Shown here one piece after another: positions 2,858 to 45,808 of a stretch of DNA of 64,000 nt. Below the pieces are notes generated by a model. The model made no database searches. It saw only the letters and a program-made list of their open reading frames with translations, and was not told where the DNA came from. The stretch comes from Thioploca ingrica. Lineage in GTDB: Bacteria > Pseudomonadota > Gammaproteobacteria > Beggiatoales > Beggiatoaceae. The position numbers were made by a program, and so were the translations under genes. The DNA is taken from positions 1,798,001 through 1,862,000 of the forward strand of contig AP014633.1 of the NCBI GenBank assembly GCA_000828835.1, written 5' to 3'. Within the stretch, counting starts at the first letter, position 1, and each line of letters begins with the position of its first letter.

Positions 2858-5254
2858 TTAATTGACAACCAGTGAGGGATTCCATAAATAGTTCGCTTTC
2901 CAATCATAAGGCGAAGGTGGGCTGCCTTTGAGTGGCTTGATTGATAAGCTGTCAGTATTTTCCAGGAGTTTATTACACTGGGTGATGAATAACTTACTCG
3001 CATCGAAAAAAGTAGCGGGTAACACCACCAGATTTTCACTGACATCTTGATCCGGGGAAGAAATCTCCACCACACCATCGATACCAAAGCGCGAAGAAGC
3101 ATTGATAACCTGTTCTAAGGGTTCCGAGGATAAATTATAAATCCCAGTGGTAGTGATATTGATATTACCACCCTCACCACTGATGGCTTGAGCAAAAATG
3201 TGGCTGTGGTTAAGAATGACAAACTCAGAGTTTAACGTAATGTTACCGCCATTGCCGGCTTGGGCATTAACACTAGTGGTGATTTCACTGTTAGTTAATT
3301 GTAAGTAATTGGGTACCGTGATGTTAATGTTTCCCCCATCCGTTCGAGCCGCTGAAGTTCGGATTGAACCTTGTTGCATTCTTAATTTATCGGTTAGAGT
3401 GAGTTCAATATTACCGGCATTACCCACACCGTCACTGCGAACCGAAAGCGCACCCCCGTCAGCAAGAGTGAGTTGACCGGTGGTTATTCTCACCTCACCG
3501 CCTTGACCGGAACTGCGGTTATCGGTGGCGGCGGTTATGCCGGTGTTATTACCTTTAATTTTAATCGCTTGGCGGGCAACAATTTCAATATGACCACCTG
3601 GACCACTTCCAGCCAAAGTATTCGTCCGAATAGTCCCACCTTCAGCGAGTTCTAAAGTAGAAACCTGGAGATTGACACTGCCAGCATGACCTTGGCGTAA
3701 AGTCAGTGCCTGAATCGTTGCGCCTTGTTCTATGATCAGTTGAGGTGTCCACAGGTTAATTTGTCCCCCAGAACCATTCAAGGTAAACACATTACTCAAT
3801 AAGCCACTGGGCTGATTCAAAGTTGACGATTTACCTTGGAGCCGAATGGCATCCGCTGCCGTTATCGTCAATTGTCCACCTTTACCAGCTCCCTGGACAT
3901 GGCGTTGATCGCCTACCCCAACTGCAATTTGAGCACCATCACGTATCTCTAAAGTATTGACTTGTAAAGACAGGTTACCCGCTTCACCTTCACCGAGGGT
4001 ATTCGCTTGTAATTGAGCGTCTTGTTCAAGTCGAACTTGCGGTGCAGTGATATTAATTTGACCGCCAGAACCATTACGAGTGGCATTACTCAATATCGCA
4101 CTGGGCAACAAACCTTGTTGATCCATTCCACTAAGGAATAAAGCCGATTTTAGGGATAAGTTGATGTTACCAGCGGTACTCGCTGTATAACTGGTACTGG
4201 CAATTTGTGAACCGGCGGTTAATTGCAATTGCTCTGCTCGAATATCAATTGGACCGGCGGTACCGGTTGCTTGACCAAATAAGTTGTTATCAGCCACCTC
4301 GGTAGTAACACGAGCAGCCTGGGTAAGGGCAAATTCTTTATCCACCTGAATAGTAATCCCGCGTCCTGGCTGGTCGCCTAAAGTGTCCGCAAAAATCCAA
4401 CCGCCCTCTAAAAAAAATTGCCCCGCACGGATAAAAACCGCTCCCCCACCGCGACCGCTTGTTTGTAAATTGCCGACTAATTGTCCGGTCGTGTCCGCAT
4501 CACTTATTCGCACCGTGCCATAATCGGTAAAAGCACCAGTCGTTAACTGCTGGGTATCAACGGGCGCTTCTCCAGCAGAATCAACACTAACTATATTGAT
4601 ATTACTACCAAAAGTATCTACAACACTATCCTGAATGGTTATATCGCCACCGATAAATGCCAGAGTGTGATTAGGATTGGCTGTTCTTTGAATAGCCTGC
4701 TTGATATCGGTTGGACTGGTCAGATTTAACTGGCTGTTTTGTACTGTAATTGGCGAAGGATGATCTAAGAAACCAAATGCCGTCGGTGCAGCCACTGAGA
4801 GTAAAGTATTATTCGGCAGAGTAGCATTAAACTGTCCGGTTGCGCCTAATTGCAAATAATCGGCCGTACTCAGATATAATGACGCTGGCACATCGATTTG
4901 AGCCTGTGGTCCAAATAAAATACCCGCCGGATTAATAAAATAGAAGTTCGCCTGCGGAATTTGCGAACGAAATAGACCATTAATATGAGAGGGTTGTCCA
5001 CCAGTGACCCGATTAATAACATTGTTAATCGTCGCTGGACCCGTAAAAGTAGCGCTTTCAGTTGGGTCGAGATTAAAGCGCTCAAAGCTGTGAAAGAGAT
5101 TATCTCCTACTTGTTGTCCTAATGGTGCATCAATAACAAAATTTGGTCCCGGTAAGGAACCAGTGGTACCTAAAGTTCCATCGAAGACAACCTCTCCATG
5201 AGCCAATGAAACGACACTCAACCAACCGAATCCAGTTATTAAGTGACAACGCAT
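2858..5254 (-). CDS. Filamentous haemagglutinin-type exoprotein (two-partner secretion TpsA-like)
   Basis: 798 residues. Residues 1-20 form a short signal peptide ending SLAHG. Residues 22-150 are a typical TPS/haemagglutination-activity domain: GPNFVIDAPLGQQVGDNLFHS, FTGPATINNVINRVTGG, and the family hallmark FYFINPAGILFGPQA. The remainder is a series of short glycine/asparagine-rich repeats (SGGQINITAP, GNINLSLKS, GGEVRITTGQL), as expected for a right-handed beta-helix. Known TpsA proteins are exported by a TpsB outer-membrane partner; no TpsB gene is in the window. At about 800 residues it is shorter than classical FHA and resembles the exoproteins common in cyanobacteria and Thiotrichales. 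The C-terminus (KANYLWNPSLVVN) carries no obvious anchor, so release or a noncovalent hold is likely. The 5' neighbour is an ABC exporter on the same strand, 160 bp away. Confidence 0.88.
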   Translation of the reverse strand: MRCHLITGFGWLSVVSLAHGEVVFDGTLGTTGSLPGPNFVIDAPLGQQVGDNLFHSFERFNLDPTESATFTGPATINNVINRVTGGQPSHINGLFRSQIPQANFYFINPAGILFGPQAQIDVPASLYLSTADYLQLGATGQFNATLPNNTLLSVAAPTAFGFLDHPSPITVQNSQLNLTSPTDIKQAIQRTANPNHTLAFIGGDITIQDSVVDTFGSNINIVSVDSAGEAPVDTQQLTTGAFTDYGTVRISDADTTGQLVGNLQTSGRGGGAVFIRAGQFFLEGGWIFADTLGDQPGRGITIQVDKEFALTQAARVTTEVADNNLFGQATGTAGPIDIRAEQLQLTAGSQIASTSYTASTAGNINLSLKSALFLSGMDQQGLLPSAILSNATRNGSGGQINITAPQVRLEQDAQLQANTLGEGEAGNLSLQVNTLEIRDGAQIAVGVGDQRHVQGAGKGGQLTITAADAIRLQGKSSTLNQPSGLLSNVFTLNGSGGQINLWTPQLIIEQGATIQALTLRQGHAGSVNLQVSTLELAEGGTIRTNTLAGSGPGGHIEIVARQAIKIKGNNTGITAATDNRSSGQGGEVRITTGQLTLADGGALSVRSDGVGNAGNIELTLTDKLRMQQGSIRTSAARTDGGNINITVPNYLQLTNSEITTSVNAQAGNGGNITLNSEFVILNHSHIFAQAISGEGGNINITTTGIYNLSSEPLEQVINASSRFGIDGVVEISSPDQDVSENLVVLPATFFDASKLFITQCNKLLENTDSLSIKPLKGSPPSPYDWKANYLWNPSLVVN

Positions 5255-5414: not shown

Positions 5415-7208
5415 CTATTTCTCTTCTTGCTGTCGTGCCCACATGGCGGCATAAACCCCGTTGGCGTTTAATAATTTGATATGAGTACCTTGTTCAATAA
5501 TTTGCCTTTGTTCCATAACTAAAATCTGTTGAGCATCAACAATTGTCGAGAGACGGTGAGCAATCACTAAAGTGGTGTGATTCACGGCAACTTGAGATAA
5601 AGCGGTTTGGATGAGTTGTTCAGAATGAGAATCTAATGAAGAAGTGGCTTCATCAAAGATGAGAATCTGGGGGCATTTTAACATCGCACGTGCAATGGCA
5701 ACTCGTTGCTTTTCACCACCAGATAATTTTAAACCACGTTCTCCTACGGTCGTATCATAGCCTTGCGGTAAAGATTCAATGAAAGTATGAATGTTCGCTA
5801 ATTGAGCAGCGGTTACTATTTCGGCTTGACTCGCTTGCGGTCGAGCATAAGCAATGTTGTAACGAATCGTATCATTAAATAACACCGTATCCTGGGGTAC
5901 TACACCGATAGCGGCACGCAGGCTAGCTTGAGTGACGTGGCGAATATCTTGGCCGTTGATTAAAATACGACCCGTGGTTACATCGTAAAAACGCAGCAAC
6001 AACCGTGCAACGGTAGATTTACCAGCACCGCTTGCGCCCACAATAGCGACTTTATGTCCGGCAGGGATGGTAAAACTAAGTGGAGCTAAAATGGGTCGAT
6101 CCGGTTGATAGTGAAAACTCACCTCCTCAAAACAAACTGCTCCACCATTGACTTGTAAGGGCTGCGCTTGGGGATGATCCTGAATTTCAGGTTGATTATC
6201 CAGTAATTTGAACATTAAATCCATATCAGCTAAGGCATATTTAACAGAACGATAAACCACACCCAAAAAATTTAAAGGAATAAACAACTGTAATAAAAAC
6301 GCATTGACTAAAACTAAATCACCTAAACTCATCTGACCGGTAACCACACCCTGACTAGCCAATAACATAATTAAAGTAACGCCTATCGCAATAATGGCAG
6401 ATTGTCCAAAGTTGAGCGCTGACATCGAAGTTTGACTTTTGACTGCCGCTAGTTCCCATTGGGACAAGGTGTTATCATAACGTTGTACCTCGAAAGCTTC
6501 GTTATTAAAGGCTTTAACAGTTTCATAATTGACTAAACTATCAATAGCTTGATTATTTGCTTCCGATTCTTTAGCATTCATAGTATAACGAAATTCCATG
6601 CGCCATTCGGTGACAGCAAAGGTAAATATGACGTAGATAATAACGGTTAGAAAAGTAATCCCAGCGAATTGGATGTCATATTGAGAAAATAAAATCAGCG
6701 CGATAAATAAAAATTCAGCTAAAGTTGGAATAATCTGAAAAATCATGTAATTTAGAATGGAACTAATACTGCGGGTACCTCGCTCTAAATCACGGGAAAT
6801 GGCGCCAATTTGTCGTTCGAGATGAAACCGGAGGGATAAATCATGTAAATGAGTTAATACCTGATTAGAAAGACGTCGCATGGCGTGATAACGAACTCTA
6901 GCAAAAACCGCATCACGTAACTCGTTAAACAGCGAACTCGACAGACGTAAAATGCCATAAGCAGTCAGTAAGGTAATCGGTAAAACTGGTGTGGTTTGTT
7001 GGTGTTTATCAAGCGCATCAACAATATATTTCAACACCATCGGCACGCCCACATTGGCCATTTTAGCCAAAACTAAAAACAAAAGAGCCAAAAGTACCCG
7101 TCCCCGATAATCCCAAATATAGGGCAACATATTGGGTAAATTTTTACGGTCACGTCGGTCCAGGTGAGCTTTGGTGGTATAACGATAATGAGTCATGATA
7201 TTGCGCAT
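5415..7208 (-). CDS. ABC transporter, fused permease-ATPase (Atm1/HMT1-like)
   Basis: 597-residue half-transporter. An N-terminal membrane domain (residues about 35-320) has several hydrophobic helices (VLLALLFLVLAKMANVGVP, PTLAEFLFIALILF). A C-terminal ATPase domain (about 355-595) has Walker A GASGAGKST, Q-loop GVVPQDTVLF, signature LSGGEKQRVAIARA, Walker B ILIFDEATSSLD and the switch H in VIAHRLSTI. The N-terminal NVGVPMVLKYIVDAL and length fit the Atm1/ABCB7/HMT1 branch, whose known members export glutathione-linked sulfur or metal compounds; the substrate here cannot be read from the sequence. The start at 7208 gives MRNIMTHY; an ATG four codons later is possible. Divergent from the gene at 7270 with only 61 bp between. 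Confidence 0.85.
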   Translation of the reverse strand: MRNIMTHYRYTTKAHLDRRDRKNLPNMLPYIWDYRGRVLLALLFLVLAKMANVGVPMVLKYIVDALDKHQQTTPVLPITLLTAYGILRLSSSLFNELRDAVFARVRYHAMRRLSNQVLTHLHDLSLRFHLERQIGAISRDLERGTRSISSILNYMIFQIIPTLAEFLFIALILFSQYDIQFAGITFLTVIIYVIFTFAVTEWRMEFRYTMNAKESEANNQAIDSLVNYETVKAFNNEAFEVQRYDNTLSQWELAAVKSQTSMSALNFGQSAIIAIGVTLIMLLASQGVVTGQMSLGDLVLVNAFLLQLFIPLNFLGVVYRSVKYALADMDLMFKLLDNQPEIQDHPQAQPLQVNGGAVCFEEVSFHYQPDRPILAPLSFTIPAGHKVAIVGASGAGKSTVARLLLRFYDVTTGRILINGQDIRHVTQASLRAAIGVVPQDTVLFNDTIRYNIAYARPQASQAEIVTAAQLANIHTFIESLPQGYDTTVGERGLKLSGGEKQRVAIARAMLKCPQILIFDEATSSLDSHSEQLIQTALSQVAVNHTTLVIAHRLSTIVDAQQILVMEQRQIIEQGTHIKLLNANGVYAAMWARQQEEK

Positions 7209-39419: not shown

Positions 39420-41213
39420 TTATAAATAAGCCAATTCGTCTCTTCTACCGGTAATTTGGCGCGCCTCTTCCAAAGCACTATCCAAATCAAAAGCCGGTTC
39501 AAAATCCGCTTCGACTAACAAGCGCTTGCGGTAGACTTCGGGGAATTTTTTCAAAGTATCCGCAATGTGATTGGAAGCAGTTTGCCCCAAACCACAGTGG
39601 CTAGCGGTTTTGAGAATCTGACTAATATGGCTCATATCTTTTAAGTCATCGGCGGTACCATGACCGGTATAGACTTTTTCTACTAAATTCTTGAGTAAGG
39701 AAGTACCTACCCGACACGGGGTGCAAAAACCGCAACTTTCATGCACGAAGAAATGCGCAAAATTACGCACCACTTCCAGCAAATCGCGTTGCCGATTAAA
39801 GATCATCACTGATCCGCCGGTAGCGACATCTTCAAAGGCGATTTTGCGATCAAATTCTTTGGCGGATAAGCAGGTGCCGGCAGCGCCGGAAATTTGTACG
39901 GCTTGAGTATCTTGGGCGCCACAGGCTTCTAGAACTTCTCGCACGCTCACACCAAAGGGAAATTCATAGATCCCAGGGCGTAAACAGTCACCGGAAATGC
40001 TCAGTAATTTGGTACCTTTCGACTGTTTTGTACCGAGTGCCGCAAAGCCGTCGCCACCATAAACGGCGATTCGCGCAGCTAGGGCGAAGGTTTCTACATT
40101 ATTGACGACGGTGGGTTTGTTGAGATAGCCTTGGGTCACGGGGAAAGGCGGGCGATTGCGCGGGACACCTCGTTTACCTTCTAACGATTCAATCAAGGCT
40201 AATTCAGCACCACAAACGTAAGCGCCAGCCCCTAAATGAATTTTGATATCGAAAGAGAAATTGGGATTACCGAGAATTTGTTCACCCAATAAGCCCTGTT
40301 CCCGTCGCTTCGCGAGCACGGCTTCTAAGGGTTGCAGTAAATAACGATATTCACCTCGTAAATACAAAAATCCTTGGTGTGCACCAATAATGCGAGCACA
40401 GACTGTCATGCCTTCAAAGACCAGATCAGCATAGCTTTGTAGTAACACGCGATCTTTGAAGGTACCTGGTTCACCTTCATCGGCATTGCAAACCACGTAA
40501 CGTTCATCAGCATGCGTGTTGCGACAAAATGCCCATTTAGTTGCGGTTTTAAACCCAGCGCCACCACAACCGCGTAAACCGGATTTCTCAATCTCGGCTA
40601 AAGTCGCGTCGGTACCTCGAGCCAGCATGACCCGAATGGCCAAACCTTCTTCCAAGGGTTCTCCCAAGAGGATATGTTTGTGCTGGATGTTATCTTGTAC
40701 TTGAAAGAATTCAGTTGGCCAATGGGAGAGTGGTGTTTGGGTTTCGATTAACTCAGCAATTTTATCCAGCTTGGCTTGAGTTAATTGGGTTACCGTATAG
40801 CCATTAACTAACATCGCTGGCCCTTGATCACTCATGCCAATACAAGCAGTATTGTCAATTGTCACTCGGCCATCAGCGCGTGGCTTACCGATTTCCACCT
40901 TGAGTTTTTGTAAAAGGTAGTCCATTAATTGGGGTTTACCTTGTAGATGTTCAATGATATTGTCGCTAAAGTAAATATCATATTGACCACGGGGGCTATC
41001 ATGGAAAAAGCTATAAAAACCCGCTACACCGGCAACATAAGCGCGTGGTAATTTTAAAATTTCAGCAAAACTATCAATCGCTGCGGTTGGAATGTAACTG
41101 AGTTTTTCTTGCACCTGCCATAGCATTTGCACTAATTCAGTCGCTTGATAAGCGTAGCTATGGGTAATTTCTTGAACAGTCGTGTGGATAGTAGTCATGT
41201 CGATAGTCGACAT
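39420..41213 (-). CDS. hoxF: Hydrogenase diaphorase subunit HoxF, NuoE-NuoF fusion
   Basis: 597 residues, first gene of hoxFUYH. Residues 1-145 are a NuoE-like thioredoxin domain, 175-580 NuoF-like: FMN loop RGCGGAGFKTATKW, NADH site GAGAYVCGAELALIESLEG, and the 4Fe-4S ligands ESCGFCTPCRVG with a later Cys in ASHCGLGQ. The NuoE domain normally binds a 2Fe-2S cluster with four Cys; here only Cys 124 (NTACIGMSDQG) remains, the first pair position reading YFSDNIIEH, so the cluster is probably not formed. No separate hoxE gene precedes it. The fusion places it with the Ralstonia/Hydrogenophilus-type soluble hydrogenases rather than the cyanobacterial HoxEFUYH form. It exchanges electrons with NAD+/NADH. 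Confidence 0.94.
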   Translation of the reverse strand: MSTIDMTTIHTTVQEITHSYAYQATELVQMLWQVQEKLSYIPTAAIDSFAEILKLPRAYVAGVAGFYSFFHDSPRGQYDIYFSDNIIEHLQGKPQLMDYLLQKLKVEIGKPRADGRVTIDNTACIGMSDQGPAMLVNGYTVTQLTQAKLDKIAELIETQTPLSHWPTEFFQVQDNIQHKHILLGEPLEEGLAIRVMLARGTDATLAEIEKSGLRGCGGAGFKTATKWAFCRNTHADERYVVCNADEGEPGTFKDRVLLQSYADLVFEGMTVCARIIGAHQGFLYLRGEYRYLLQPLEAVLAKRREQGLLGEQILGNPNFSFDIKIHLGAGAYVCGAELALIESLEGKRGVPRNRPPFPVTQGYLNKPTVVNNVETFALAARIAVYGGDGFAALGTKQSKGTKLLSISGDCLRPGIYEFPFGVSVREVLEACGAQDTQAVQISGAAGTCLSAKEFDRKIAFEDVATGGSVMIFNRQRDLLEVVRNFAHFFVHESCGFCTPCRVGTSLLKNLVEKVYTGHGTADDLKDMSHISQILKTASHCGLGQTASNHIADTLKKFPEVYRKRLLVEADFEPAFDLDSALEEARQITGRRDELAYL

Positions 41214-41525
41214 ATTGGTTTAATCTCCTAGTTGAATGGGTTGAGGACGATGTAGTGACTACTTTAAGATTAGCTTGATTATTTCTTTATGATTGTGAGT
41301 TGAAGGTATTATAACGATTTTATTTTAATAGCTAAAGCTTTTTATTAATAGTATAGATGAGAAAAAGGTGCAAATTTGGGGCGAGTCTACTTTGCTAAGC
41401 GAATACCATTAAGCAAGTTAGTTGTGACGGGTAGAAGTTCTCGCTTCGCATTTTGTTAAGCAAGTATGAGCTTGGGAAACAAGCGTTTCCAACGAGGGTA
41501 GTCAATGCTATTAAGTTAAGCTATA

Positions 41526-41619
41526 ACTCCCCTCTTTAAAAAAGGGGGCCGGGGGGATTTTTTGGTAAGTCAACCGTTTAAAATCCCCCCTAACTCCCCT
41601 TTGAAAAAGGGGGGAATCC
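41526..41619. repeat. Inverted pair of C-run/G-run repeats
   Basis: Left arm ACTCCCCTCTTTAAAAAA then GGGGGCCGGGGGGATTTT; right arm AAATCCCCCC, then ACTCCCCTTTGAAAAAGG and GGGGAAT. The arms are approximate inverted copies about 20 bases apart; a single copy occurs at 31352. It occupies the middle of the 500-bp gap between hoxF and tolB. The gap also holds a degraded TTCCCAACGAG-type block (41468-41505). I see no gene there; the hox promoter should lie in the AT-rich part near 41220-41340. Confidence 0.6.
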
Positions 41620-41714
41620 TTAAGCGGGGGTAGTGCTAAAGAGCGTGAGTCAGTTGAAATCCGGTAGAAGTCTCTTACTCACCTAAATGTTACCACCGCT
41701 TAGTAGGCTAGAGG

Positions 41715-43016
41715 TTAATAAGAAAAAGGTGACCAAGCCGGTTCACGAACTTCTTCTCCTAAATTGACGACGAGTCGTTGGCGAACACTACCGTCGGAGG
41801 ATACTGCCGCTAATTCAGAACCGGTCGCATAAATGATCATATCGCCATTGGGAGCAAAACTCGGTGATTCGTCTAAACTCGTTTGACTCAAGATTTTTAA
41901 GTTACCACTCCCCAAATCCAATGAGGCAATTCGATAACCTTGACCGCTGCTATGTAATAATGCTAATCGATTCCCATCCGGCGAAAAACGAGCACGTGCA
42001 TTGTAATTGCCTTTAAAAGTTAACCGTTGTACTTGGCTACCATCCGCAGCCATACGATAAATCTGCGGCTGATTACCAACGCGGTCTGAGGTAAATACCA
42101 GTGATTGTCCATCAGGTGCCCATTCCGGCTCAGTATCAATCGCTGGATCATGAGTTAAACGAGTTAAGGCACCGGTAAGTAAATTAAAAACATAGATTTC
42201 GGGATTGCCTTCATGGGATAAAGTGACGGCTAAACGAGTTCCATCGGGTGACCAAGCCGGAGCGGCGTTAAGTCCACGTTTATCAGAAATGCGCAGCCGT
42301 CGTCCAGTCTGAACTTCTTGAACATAAATAGCCATTTTTTTATCACTTCCCCGGTTTTCATAGGTCACATAGGCAATCCGCCGCCCATCGGGTGACCAAG
42401 TGGGTGAAAAAATGGGTTCGTCTGAGCGCAACATCAAGCGTGGATTAGCGCCATCGGCATCGGCAACCTGGAGTTGATATTCTTTTTGCTTACCACGACC
42501 TTGTAAGGTCACATAGACAATTCGGGTACCAAATACACCTCGCACGCCAAGCAGAGCATTATAAATTTTATCACTAATTTGATGAGCAACTTGTCGTAGG
42601 GTTTGGACGGTGGCTGGATATTGAAATCCAATTAAACGGGTGCCTTTATAAACATCAAATAATTCAAATTCAACGGTATAACCGCTCAAACTCCCACCGC
42701 TAATCCGCCCAATCACTAAATAAGGAACACCGGCGGCTTGCCAATTGGAGAAAGTCACCTGATGTGCGTAGCTTGGGCGTTCTGGTAGACTAGAGGCTGA
42801 CATAGGCGAAAAGCGACCACTACGATGTAAATCACTGGACACAATGCCGGCTATATCCTGTGGTGGTGGAGTATTAGCGGATACGCCAAAGGGGACAATG
42901 GCAATGGGAGGTGCTCCTCCTTCTTCTGCATTGGCGGTAACCTCAATGGTTAGAATAGCATAGACTGGTTTTAATAAACACATGTAAATCAATAAAAAGA
43001 AGACAAAAATACGCAT
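41715..43016 (-). CDS. tolB: TolB, periplasmic component of the Tol-Pal system
   Basis: 433 residues from ATG 43016 (MRIFVFFLLIYMCLLKPVYA, signal peptide); the frame can be extended seven codons to a TTG inside tolA. The N-terminal domain (APPIAIVPFG...DIAGIVSSDLHRSGRF) interacts with TolA in known systems. The C-terminal half is a six-bladed propeller with repeated WSPDGRRIAYVT, WSPDGTRLAVTL, WAPDGQSLVFTS and FSPDGNRLALLH. It binds Pal and couples the inner-membrane TolQRA motor to the outer membrane during cell constriction. The usual downstream genes pal and cpoB are absent; after a 500-bp repeat-bearing gap comes the hydrogenase operon. Confidence 0.94.
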   Translation of the reverse strand: MRIFVFFLLIYMCLLKPVYAILTIEVTANAEEGGAPPIAIVPFGVSANTPPPQDIAGIVSSDLHRSGRFSPMSASSLPERPSYAHQVTFSNWQAAGVPYLVIGRISGGSLSGYTVEFELFDVYKGTRLIGFQYPATVQTLRQVAHQISDKIYNALLGVRGVFGTRIVYVTLQGRGKQKEYQLQVADADGANPRLMLRSDEPIFSPTWSPDGRRIAYVTYENRGSDKKMAIYVQEVQTGRRLRISDKRGLNAAPAWSPDGTRLAVTLSHEGNPEIYVFNLLTGALTRLTHDPAIDTEPEWAPDGQSLVFTSDRVGNQPQIYRMAADGSQVQRLTFKGNYNARARFSPDGNRLALLHSSGQGYRIASLDLGSGNLKILSQTSLDESPSFAPNGDMIIYATGSELAAVSSDGSVRQRLVVNLGEEVREPAWSPFSY

Positions 43017-43026
43017 TGTTTTTAAC

Positions 43027-44217
43027 CTAATCGACAAGTTTAAATGTAGATTGAACCGGATTAAATTCTCCCACTAAATCTTTAGGTATTGGTAAAGGTG
43101 ATGCTCGCTGGGCTGCACGTTTCGCGAAATCATCGAAAATACGATTACCACTTCCTTTAACAACAGTTACTTTAGTTACATGACCATTTTCACTAATGAA
43201 AATGTTTACTATGCAAGACAACCCGCGATAATTTTCCCCTCGAGGAGGATTACTCCTCCAAATCCTCTGTACTTTCCCTTCAACACTAGCTTTTACTCGT
43301 CCTATACGTTGTTTGTCATTTTTTTGACTAGCTGCCTCGGCCGCTTTACGTTTTTCCTCGGCTGCTTGCTCAGCCGCTTTACGTTTTTCCTCGGCTTCGC
43401 GAGCGGCTTGTTGTTCTGCGGCTTGGCGCTTCTTTTCTTCTGCCTCTCGCTCAGCTTTTTGTTCGGCCGATTTCCGTTGTTTCTCAGCTTTTTCAGTTGC
43501 TTTTTGCTCTGCGGCTTTACGTTTCTTTTCCTCAGCTTGAGCCGCTTTTTTCTCTGCTAGCTTGCGTTTCTTTTCGGCGGTTTTTTGTTCCGCCGCTTTG
43601 CGTTTTTCTTCCTCTTTAGCTAAACGGGCTTGTTTTTCAGCTTGTTTCTTTTTCTCTAACTTCTTTTGCTCGGCAAGGCTTTTAGCTTCCTCTTTTTTCT
43701 GCAATTCTTGCTTTTTTTCTAAATGTTGGTTTCGTTCGCGTTCGGCTTGTTCCAATTCATCTCGTAGTGCTTCTTCTCTTTCCCTTCTTGCTTTAGCTTC
43801 TTGTTTTAATCGTGCTTGTTCAATTTGTTGACGTTTGGACTTATCCAACTGAGCTGTTTCATTGCGGCGTTGCTGTTCTAATTGGGCTAAACGTTGTTGT
43901 TCTCGTTGTTTTTGTTCGCGTAGTTTATCTAAGCGTCGTGCTTCCTTTTCTACAGTACGTTCAACATTGTTTATTTGCTTTTCTAATTCAACATATTGAG
44001 TTTTTTGGGTTTTATTTTCATTGTGTTGTTGAGCTTTAAAATAGCTAACTGCGTTTAATACTTGCTTTTCATCCATCGCCATGGCTTGGATAATATGCTC
44101 CGGCTTAGGTGGTATTACGTGCGGTTTTAAAGGCCATTCTACATTAAAAATAACCACAATGAGTAGCAGCACATGAATAATAAGTGCATTGAAAAATGAA
44201 ATTGTCTTATCCCACAT
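43027..44217 (-). CDS. tolA: TolA, inner-membrane linker of the Tol-Pal system
   Basis: 396 residues. One membrane helix (ALIIHVLLLIVVIF, residues 11-24), then about 240 residues of K/E/A/Q-rich coiled coil (AEQKTAEKKRKLAEKKAAQ), and a C-terminal TolA-III/TonB-like domain (about 305-396) with the pattern CIVNIFISENGHVTKVTVVKGSG. TolA spans the periplasm and is energised by TolQR. Its start MWDK... is shared with the short paralogue encoded just upstream (46 bp gap). The repeated codons of the coiled coil open long frames on the opposite strand, which are not genes. Confidence 0.93.
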   Translation of the reverse strand: MWDKTISFFNALIIHVLLLIVVIFNVEWPLKPHVIPPKPEHIIQAMAMDEKQVLNAVSYFKAQQHNENKTQKTQYVELEKQINNVERTVEKEARRLDKLREQKQREQQRLAQLEQQRRNETAQLDKSKRQQIEQARLKQEAKARREREEALRDELEQAERERNQHLEKKQELQKKEEAKSLAEQKKLEKKKQAEKQARLAKEEEKRKAAEQKTAEKKRKLAEKKAAQAEEKKRKAAEQKATEKAEKQRKSAEQKAEREAEEKKRQAAEQQAAREAEEKRKAAEQAAEEKRKAAEAASQKNDKQRIGRVKASVEGKVQRIWRSNPPRGENYRGLSCIVNIFISENGHVTKVTVVKGSGNRIFDDFAKRAAQRASPLPIPKDLVGEFNPVQSTFKLVD

Positions 44218-44263: not shown

Positions 44264-44647
44264 TTATTCCGGTTGTGCTTGTTCTACTAAGGCTTGTTCA
44301 GCCCGTCGACGTTGTTCAAGTTGTTCTAATTGTTGCTGTTCTATTTTTTGTTCTTGCTGTAAAGCTTGCACCCGAGCTTGGGCTTGTTTCATTAATTGTT
44401 GATATTCGAGCTTTTTTTGCTCCAACGCATATTGTTGTGCCTGTTGCTCGGCATTTTTAATCGTTTCCGCTCGGGTTAACCTTTTTAATTCCAGTTGTAC
44501 TTGGTTTTCATCTATCCCGTTGTTGGTGCCGGTTGGTGGTGTTAATGTCGAAAAATAGGCAGTTAAATCGCTTCCACTTAGCAACATACCTATTAGGGTA
44601 GCGTGGAGAATTAAAGAATAAATAACAGCAACAATTTTATCCCACAT
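44264..44647 (-). CDS. Short TolA-like protein: membrane anchor and coiled coil without C-terminal domain
   Basis: 127 residues. It begins MWDKIVAVIYSLILHATLIGML, closely parallel to MWDKTISFFNALIIHVLLLI of the full TolA, then DENQVQLELKRL (TolA: DEKQVLNAVSYF) and a Q/E/A-rich coiled coil (QQEQKIEQQQLEQLEQRRRA). It ends at 44264 without the TolA-III domain. It lies between tolR and full-length tolA, five bases after tolR, so it is surely co-translated in the operon. It could occupy TolQR complexes without reaching Pal/TolB, or be a recent partial duplication. It is not a simple frameshift of tolA because the full gene follows intact. Confidence 0.78.
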   Translation of the reverse strand: MWDKIVAVIYSLILHATLIGMLLSGSDLTAYFSTLTPPTGTNNGIDENQVQLELKRLTRAETIKNAEQQAQQYALEQKKLEYQQLMKQAQARVQALQQEQKIEQQQLEQLEQRRRAEQALVEQAQPE

Positions 44648-44652
44648 CGTCG

Positions 44653-45072
44653 TTATTGATTTAAAGGTTTGGTAAGCAATCCCACTTTTTCAACGCCAGT
44701 TTCTCTGAGTAATGACATGACTTTAACGACTTTTCCATAAGCTAATTGGCTATCTCCAGCCACTAAAACTTGTGAATTAGGGTTAAGACGCATGACGGCA
44801 GTGACTCGGGTAAGCAAAGCTTCTGTCGAAATCGGTTCCTTGTCTTCATCTAAAAATAATTGTCCTTGAGCATCCACAGTCACGATCACGAAACGATTTT
44901 GTTCCGGTACCACTGTTTCAGCTTTCTTAACGGTCGGTAACTCCACTTCAACACTTCGAGTGAGTAGGGGAGAAGTAATCATAAAAATGATTAATAACAC
45001 TAACATGACATCAATATAAGGCACCACATTCATTTCGTTCATGCGGTGACGGCGAGCACGAGTATATGCCAT
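44653..45072 (-). CDS. tolR: TolR, proton-channel component of the Tol-Pal motor
   Basis: 139 residues. One membrane helix near the N-terminus (NVVPYIDVMLVLLIIFMIT) with the conserved proton-path Asp in YIDVMLVLLI. The periplasmic ExbD/TolR domain follows (VEVELPTVKKAE, FVIVTVDAQGQLFLDE, QVLVAGDSQLAYGKVV). Standard length. Five bases separate it from tolQ upstream and from the TolA-like stub downstream. Confidence 0.94.
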   Translation of the reverse strand: MAYTRARRHRMNEMNVVPYIDVMLVLLIIFMITSPLLTRSVEVELPTVKKAETVVPEQNRFVIVTVDAQGQLFLDEDKEPISTEALLTRVTAVMRLNPNSQVLVAGDSQLAYGKVVKVMSLLRETGVEKVGLLTKPLNQ

Positions 45073-45077
45073 ATTTT

Positions 45078-45770
45078 TTAGTTACTATTGACTAGGGTGA
45101 TGGTATGGGCTTGACGTTGTAAGATGCCCGTAAATTCATCTAGAAAAGTATCGTAGCGGGTGGTTAAGCGTTCGATATCTTCCACATAATGGTTGTAAGC
45201 CATGACTGCCGGAATAGCGGCAAATAAACCCATTGCCGTCGCAATTAAGGCTTCTGAAATACCCGGTGCCACCATCGCTAAAGTCACTTGTTGCATGCCA
45301 CCCAAGGCATGAAATGAATTCATAATGCCCCAAACCGTACCAAATAAGCCAATATAGGGGCTAACCGAGCCCACGGTGGCTAATGAGGTTAAATCCGCAT
45401 CCATTTCATCGACTTCGCGATGCAACACGACTCGCATAGCGCGTTGCGAACCCTCCAATAGGGCAGAAGGACTCATATTGAGTTGTTTACGCAAGCGAAC
45501 AAATTCCATATAACCGGAAGTGAAAATACCTTCCATCCCAGTGGGTTCATCATTGGTGCTACAAACTCGACTGTAAAGTGCATTCAAATCTTTGCCTTTC
45601 CAAAAGCGATCTTCAAAGTCATCTGCGGCACGACGTGCCTTTTTCAAGTAGCGACCTTTACGCAAAATCAGGCTCCAAGAATAAATGGAAATAAGTAATA
45701 ACAATAGCATCACCATTTGCACAAGCAAACTAGCGTCTAACACTAATTGTATAAGTGATAAGTTGGCCAT
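45078..45770 (-). CDS. tolQ: TolQ, stator component of the Tol-Pal motor
   Basis: 230 residues with three membrane helices: near residues 12-30 (SLLVQMVMLLLLLISIYSWS), 130-155 (SVSPYIGLFGTVWGIMNSF) and 170-190 (ALIATAMGLFAAIPAVMAYN). The GTVWGIMNSF and GLFAAIPAVMAYN segments are hallmarks of MotA/TolQ/ExbB proteins. The 5' leader between ybgC and tolQ carries an AACTGATAACTGA repeat ending just before the ATG. Confidence 0.94.
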   Translation of the reverse strand: MANLSLIQLVLDASLLVQMVMLLLLLISIYSWSLILRKGRYLKKARRAADDFEDRFWKGKDLNALYSRVCSTNDEPTGMEGIFTSGYMEFVRLRKQLNMSPSALLEGSQRAMRVVLHREVDEMDADLTSLATVGSVSPYIGLFGTVWGIMNSFHALGGMQQVTLAMVAPGISEALIATAMGLFAAIPAVMAYNHYVEDIERLTTRYDTFLDEFTGILQRQAHTITLVNSN

Positions 45771-45775
45771 TTTTC

Positions 45776-45808
45776 AGTTGTTCAGTTGTCAGTTATCAGT
45801 TATCAAAA
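45776..45808 (-). repeat. GATAACTGATAACTG repeat in the tolQ leader
   Basis: Minus strand: TTGATAACTGATAACTGACA then ACTGAACAACTGAAAA, directly before the tolQ ATG. Related short tandem blocks lie upstream of the BepA-like gene (24052-24085) and of the trifunctional kinase gene (25128-25147). Confidence 0.6.

Follow-up and report, generated by a model that had tools for sequence, protein, structure and literature searches.

What does a gene for a short, TolA-like protein do between tolR and tolA, inside the operon that encodes the Tol motor? The question is raised by the Thioploca ingrica window, the whole stretch of 64,000 nucleotides that was analyzed, whose source genome is a single contig of 4,810,005 bases. 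On the minus strand of the window, the gene row runs ruvB, ybgC, tolQ, tolR, the short gene (called the stub here), tolA and tolB. The stub is an open reading frame of 127 amino acids with an ATG start and a TAA stop, lying exactly at the place between tolR and tolA where a sequence-only reading of this DNA had put a 127-residue protein. Its start follows the tolR stop after 5 nt, and 46 nt separate its end from the ATG of tolA. The features of the locus are as follows.

44264-44647, minus strand: stub gene, encoding a 127-amino-acid TolA paralogue (anchor and helical rod, without domain III), from the open reading frame, TIGR02794 and the orthologues.
44549-44644, minus strand: membrane-anchor helix, stub residues 2-33, predicted by AlphaFold2.
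44570-44617, minus strand: complete SHLS motif of the stub, S11-H15-L22-S26, the TolA/TonB motif for TolQ docking, following the motif definition in the available part of PMC12215075.
44510-44548, minus strand: linker, stub residues 34-46, in which the TolR-box consensus is missing, from pLDDT and the pattern search.
44276-44509, minus strand: one long helix spanning stub residues 47-124, in which Q, E, L and A abound, from AlphaFold2 and composition.
44071-44091, minus strand: TolR box (R-box or motor box) IQAMAMD, TolA residues 43-49, from the pattern and the available part of PMC12215075.
43027-44217, minus strand: full-length tolA, 396 amino acids, from TIGR02794 (119.7 bits) and the TonB_2/TonB_C end.
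43078-43278, minus strand: TolA domain III, matched by Pfam TonB_2 at residues 314-380 and absent from the stub.
44653-45072, minus strand: tolR, from the open reading frame.
45078-45770, minus strand: tolQ, from the open reading frame; its segment SIYSW was aligned by eye with the E. coli docking residues Ser28..Trp32.
41715-43037, minus strand: tolB, aligned to the tolB of relatives; the listed start is a TTG and the true start may be downstream.

In the window, a long open reading frame at 39420-41715 follows tolB, in the place directly behind it that pal and cpoB take in some relatives; this frame presumably resembles a NADH-binding hydrogenase or complex I subunit. A scan of the locus against Rfam at the gathering threshold returned no family, and a promoter scan was near chance (16 vs 12.9). 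The genome has three further ExbD-type genes, and no stub-like gene was found next to them among open reading frames of at least 80 amino acids.

Similarity to TolA is detected along most of the stub. Both proteins of the window start with MWDK, and the stub aligns with the TolA of its own genome at 27% identity over residues 1-124 (E 3.8e-6), which bears out the TolA-like anchor proposed earlier; judged from this alignment, the homology is extended past the anchor. A search of the same genome with the stub found no matches besides the stub itself and TolA. The NCBIfam TolA model TIGR02794 matches stub residues 7-119 at profile positions 3-127 of 362 (E 3.8e-9), with a score of 36.2 bits that lies below the curated family cut-off of 59.45, and the same part of the model is matched by stubs of Parabeggiatoa, Marithrix and the Halobeggiatoa group (E 1.3e-8, 1.8e-7 and 2e-7). 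The stub had also been read as lacking the Pal/TolB-binding end, and this holds: the Pfam domains TonB_2 and TonB_C are present in TolA and give no match in the stub, the frame of which stops at residue 127. A single tolA split by a sequencing frameshift was considered for the window and rejected, because the stub is followed by an intact tolA that has an anchor of its own.

Is the gene shared with relatives? A profile made from eight stubs was searched against 42 genomes of the family and matched in 25. In 11 of them, from five genera, the match is a separate open reading frame of 122-138 amino acids between tolR and tolA; in 14 it is only the start of a longer frame (at least 205 amino acids, the 205-residue frame running off its contig), and the other 17 gave none. 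The order tolR-stub-tolA is found in 11 of 11 bearers (G000, G001, G018, G003, G027, G023, G020, G033, G057, G058 and G059). These comprise Thioploca (the window and L076), Candidatus Parabeggiatoa sp. 2 (L080), Ca. Marithrix (L089, L090), the Thiotrichaceae MAG "M2" (L091) and a group of five genomes, g20, called the Halobeggiatoa group here after L084, the other four records being titled Thiotrichales bacterium HSG1 or Thioploca sp. and linked to G057-G059 through identical match figures. Among 369 genomes drawn from the class, no second origin of the stub was detected within the reach of the profile; 96 matched at E 1e-5, with listed frames of at least 234 amino acids except in G000 and G332. 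The short frame of G332 (L163) was rejected as a stub, as it belongs to a frameshift-split TolA with later TolA pieces in other frames. In another Thiotrichaceae, an unrelated open reading frame of 168 amino acids lies between tolR and tolA (L095, 5445-5951); it presumably resembles the Uma2-type nuclease family.

No stub was found in the relatives of Thiomargarita nelsonii, and the profile search of the 42 family genomes gave no stub match in three g2 genomes and G060. Many of the relatives are represented by assemblies from metagenomes, and absence from the incomplete ones (e.g. G032, G034, G061, G062) is not proof. In the g2 genomes and G060, tolA is separated from tolR and neighbors tolB (L057, L059, L060). 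No tolA comes after tolR in g2 genomes or in Parabeggiatoa sp. 3 (L078, L079, L083, L077). When the DNA behind tolR in g2 genomes and in Parabeggiatoa sp. 3 was searched by tblastn for a decayed stub, the best E was 0.002 and none of the best 40 matches was judged a remnant. The stub is thus dispensable, since none was found in the Thiomargarita nelsonii relatives or g2, which belong to the same clade as the bearers. The idea that it is suited to long filamentous cells fares poorly: tolA directly follows tolR in G010 and G028, which we take to be Beggiatoa alba and B. leptomitoformis, and no stub follows tolR at the Candidatus Albibeggiatoa locus L098. Its absence from Thiomargarita nelsonii and relatives would agree with the filament idea, in one group only.

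Within its operon, the stub is closely spaced. Distances from tolR to the first start codon of the stub are 5, 5, 588, 1, 4 and -4 nt and, five times, -14 nt, short enough in 10 of 11 genomes to allow translational coupling, so the suggested co-translation with the motor genes would be compatible with the spacing. In Parabeggiatoa sp. 2 (L080), arrays of TAACTGA at 4951-4971, 5929-5977 and 6439-6526 end just 5' of three start codons, those of tolR, the stub and tolA. The window array nearest to the operon lies at 45782-45802 on the minus strand, directly before tolQ. TAACTGA matches number 7 in the window vs a shuffle mean of 0.53, and 24 vs 0.09 in L080. These direct repeats belong to a class already known from this group of bacteria, and the placement of such arrays before start codons is described as common in a marine Beggiatoaceae genome, in the part of the article at hand (PMC4679880).

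Sequence change between related stubs indicates purifying selection. By the Nei-Gojobori method, dN/dS is 0.191 in the Thioploca pair, 0.479 in the Marithrix pair and 0.412, 0.247 and 0.275 in pairs of the Halobeggiatoa group, two of which share the sequence L084. For the same pairs, values are 0.08-0.31 in TolR and 0.26-0.37 in TolA, and the constraint on the stub is about equal to that on TolA and weaker than that on TolR. An excess of silent changes was found in each of the four pairs tested (Fisher p 5e-7, 0.014, 0.0004 and 4e-6), with the ratios of 0.48 and 0.41 denoting mild constraint only. Stubs of other genera are 25-44% identical to the window stub, and E53, L57, Q77, L96, L110 and R114 are invariant in 11 of 11. 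As a separate observation, the TolAs of the two Thioploca genomes share 90% identity in their first 150 residues vs 48% in their last 100 (window 43027-43330 vs L076), with dS of 0.25 vs 2.2; domain III seems to have been replaced or to evolve very fast, perhaps via recombination.

It could be argued that the stub is an evolutionary leftover, a partial duplication kept by chance or as a translational spacer and encoding a protein without a role, given its low identity between genera and its absence from the Thiomargarita nelsonii relatives and g2. However, the frame is open in all 11 genomes across five genera, dN/dS stays below 1 in five pairs, significantly in the four tested, six residues do not vary and the gene has its own TAACTGA leader in Parabeggiatoa, all of which make a leftover very unlikely. 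A passing duplication or a pseudogene was rejected on the open frames in five genera, dN/dS of 0.19-0.48 and the AU test given below. Nor is the gene lost or decayed in all close relatives, as the pair of Thioploca copies shows 87% identity and a dN/dS of 0.19. The conservation of the stub suggests that it is a real extra part of the Tol motor.

How the stub arose can be traced on a tree of the motor genes (TolQ, TolR, RuvB and TolB; 30 taxa, 1059 columns, missing genes as gaps). All 11 bearers fall in one clade (UFBoot 98), with Thioploca sister to the rest (84), and the stub-less Thiomargarita nelsonii and relatives, g2 and Parabeggiatoa sp. 3 fall inside it. Read on this topology, a single gain followed by some three losses is the simplest account; the number of losses is uncertain because the inner order of the clade is weak (UFBoot 12-53 in its deep part). 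Topology tests were performed on trees from the first about 140 residues of stubs and TolAs. An independent duplication in each genus was rejected (delta lnL 143, AU p 0.00012), and a tree with forced stub monophyly was no worse than the best one (AU p 0.487). The anchor tree places one long-branch TolA (g24) among the stubs; most of its deep nodes are weak and its middle is poorly supported. With leave-one-genus-out HMMs, held-out stubs outscored their own TolA in five of five genera; among the best 12 matches per search, the TolA of stub-less G060 scored higher than every held-out stub of the Halobeggiatoa group and Marithrix, and one g2 TolA scored higher than one Halobeggiatoa stub. The stub is most simply explained as a TolA paralogue that goes back to a single ancient duplication of part of tolA, in the ancestor of one giant sulfur bacterial clade, here Thioploca, Parabeggiatoa, Marithrix, the Halobeggiatoa group and the M2 genus.

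At the structural level, an AlphaFold2 single-chain model made from the alignment of the 11 stubs (mean pLDDT 83.7, pTM 0.38) predicts an anchor helix at residues 2-33, a loose linker at 34-46 and one helix at 47-124, this domain II-type helix being shorter than that of TolA. The pLDDT is 84, 88 and 63 in the first, second and third 10-residue blocks of the anchor, below 50 at residues 34-42 and 89-97 in 10-residue blocks over 51-120. With a helix rise of 1.5 angstrom per residue, the predicted rod would measure about 12 nm. Of the coiled coil that had been read from the sequence, the long helix stands and the coil is not supported, because no hydrophobic stripe above shuffles appears in any of the 11 stubs (at least 108 of 500 shuffles reach the hydrophobic moment of the helix), in a test of modest power in which a GCN4 zipper control gave 12 of 500. 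TolA residues 51-128 do have a hydrophobic stripe (14 of 500 shuffles). A profile search of the PDB with the stub alignment matched 14 sequences, most of them coils of Max, Beclin-1 and myosin, at E 0.02 or worse, and the same search with the TolA alignment found solved TolA chains (e.g. 9k49_H).

A long helix of this kind might act on TolA itself, pairing in the periplasm with the start of the TolA helix so as to stiffen, align or cluster TolA, which would make the force arm a hetero-assembly. The two genes share an operon, both proteins start with MWDK in three genera and both have long helices, that of TolA being striped. Domain II of E. coli TolA has been modeled as a helical hairpin in the excerpt used of PMC8928145, and the periplasmic part of TolA affects its oligomer state in that of PMC12215075; the stub would correspond to part of one arm of the hairpin. 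None of the 11 stubs has a stripe above shuffles, however, and the fact that the stub occurs only where tolA follows is predicted equally by shared expression, so this pairing is considered unlikely.

Other clues come from the motifs by which TolA meets the motor. TolA docks on TolQ through the SHLS motif, and IDAVMVD is the suspected TolR box (PMC12215075), also termed motor box, where a strand is predicted in 93% of 113 TolAs (PMC12204202). In E. coli, the TolQ contacts are Ser28 and Trp32 (PMC12215075), and H22A abolishes the TolA-TolQ pull-down (PMC12965293), all as stated in the available parts of these articles. SHLS is taken as S-x3-H-x6-L-x3-S and the TolR box as I-x-A-x-x-V-D, the box being searched with a pattern written after inspection of the sequences. 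SHLS is complete in the window stub (S11, H15, L22, S26), and the window TolA has A-H-V-V. The docking His is kept in four of 11 stubs (two of Thioploca, Parabeggiatoa and M2), representing three of five genera, and is replaced in seven, by Leu in the five of the Halobeggiatoa group and by Asn in the two of Marithrix. Partner TolAs have His in 5/11 and Asn in 6/11, the six Asn cases amounting to few events because they come from two lineages, and the TolAs of stub-less relatives have His in 13/14. The docking His of TolA is Asn in L080, L084-L087, L093 and L096. The TolR-box pattern is found in 11/11 partner TolAs, 0/11 stubs, 9/14 TolAs of stub-less relatives and 3.4% of shuffled TolA segments; its absence is no proof of lost TolR binding, because five of the 14 stub-less TolAs missed it too. 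On the docking side of TolQ, the segment S-x3-W is present in 9/11 stub genomes. The tolQ of Parabeggiatoa sp. 2 (L080, about 3950-4621) has a frameshift at the docking segment, near the first membrane helix, which is either real or an assembly fault, and no tolQ was found at the HSG1 locus. TAACTGA repeats occur just upstream of the broken L080 tolQ.

A tentative reading, given a little less than even confidence, is that the stub is a TolA-like subunit that sits on TolQ without exerting outer-membrane force and tunes the number of full TolAs per motor. From TolA it retains the anchor that docks on TolQ and the first part of the helical domain II; the TolR-box consensus is gone, and the protein stops short of domain III. 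It could insert beside TolA at spare TolA sites of the TolQ5R2 ring. Such sites may exist, because E. coli TolQ5R2 rings are reported with one to three (PMC12583513), two (PMC12215075) or five TolAs (PMC12965293) in the excerpts on which this rests. A docked stub would be able neither to grip TolR nor to reach TolB/Pal, and would thereby set the number of full-length TolAs per motor and lower that of pulling arms, or else gate the motor or hold it idle. The earlier proposal of a competitor or spacer for TolQR is in this way retained as probably the most plausible class, on the docking His in three of five genera and the missing TolR box; the seven of 11 stubs without that His weaken it, as they do the tuning subunit in particular. 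The broken tolQ of Parabeggiatoa sp. 2, whose stub keeps the His, and the lack of a tolQ found in HSG1 also count against tuning.

Loss of the TolQ-docking His would be tolerable for a division-site adaptor, whose TolA-like domain I would bind a peptidoglycan synthase or septal protein outside the force cycle of the Tol motor. E. coli PBP1B needs domain I in order to pull down TolA, according to the available part of PMC4458516. The full SHLS of the window stub and the fixed position between tolR and tolA indicate the motor instead, and an adaptor of this type is regarded as distinctly improbable. Alternatively, duplication may have been followed by a division of the two jobs of the inner half of TolA, with the stub responsible for TolQ docking and gating, full TolA being the TolR-gripped force arm and the motor needing both. 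The erosion of SHLS in the Thioploca TolA to A-H-V-V and the loss of the TolA His in Parabeggiatoa sp. 2 follow this pattern. Judged by motifs, Thioploca would fit, Parabeggiatoa would fit by its His but has a broken tolQ, M2 appears neutral, and the stubs of Marithrix and the Halobeggiatoa group would speak against such a division, which has very little chance of being correct. If it were true, TolQRA would here be a four-protein machine.

Returning to the tuning subunit, current structural work leaves open how many TolAs a TolQ5R2 ring carries and whether each one pulls. A TolA that naturally lacks its end and is encoded beside the motor offers a direct test, and the existence of mixed rings would mean that nature itself regulates the stoichiometry. 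The stub is also a natural experiment that sets apart the portions of TolA that dock on TolQ, grip TolR and bind the outer membrane.

Among the matches listed in a mostly open-access literature search, no truncated or second TolA, nor such a TolA in these genera, was found; the "truncated TolA" in the available part of PMC8928145 denotes residues 1-100 used for a co-conservation computation. TonB paralogues such as HasB are comparable to the stub, by description only and from partial sources, in that each is an extra force-arm paralogue for a 5:2 motor. HasB presumably retains its receptor-binding end, and the stub has none. In the Vibrio TonB2 system, TtpC2, TtpB2 and TtpD2 are likewise extra operon-encoded proteins that one Ton-type motor needs, again likened by description only, and are not described as TolA-type truncations in the part of the article at hand (PMC6957404). 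Unlike TolA (TIGR02794), the stub is without domain III and the TolR-box consensus, has 127 vs 396 amino acids and scores below the family cut-off; with the N-terminal part of TolA, it shares the S-x3-H anchor, the post-anchor segment, the start of domain II and the place beside tolR.
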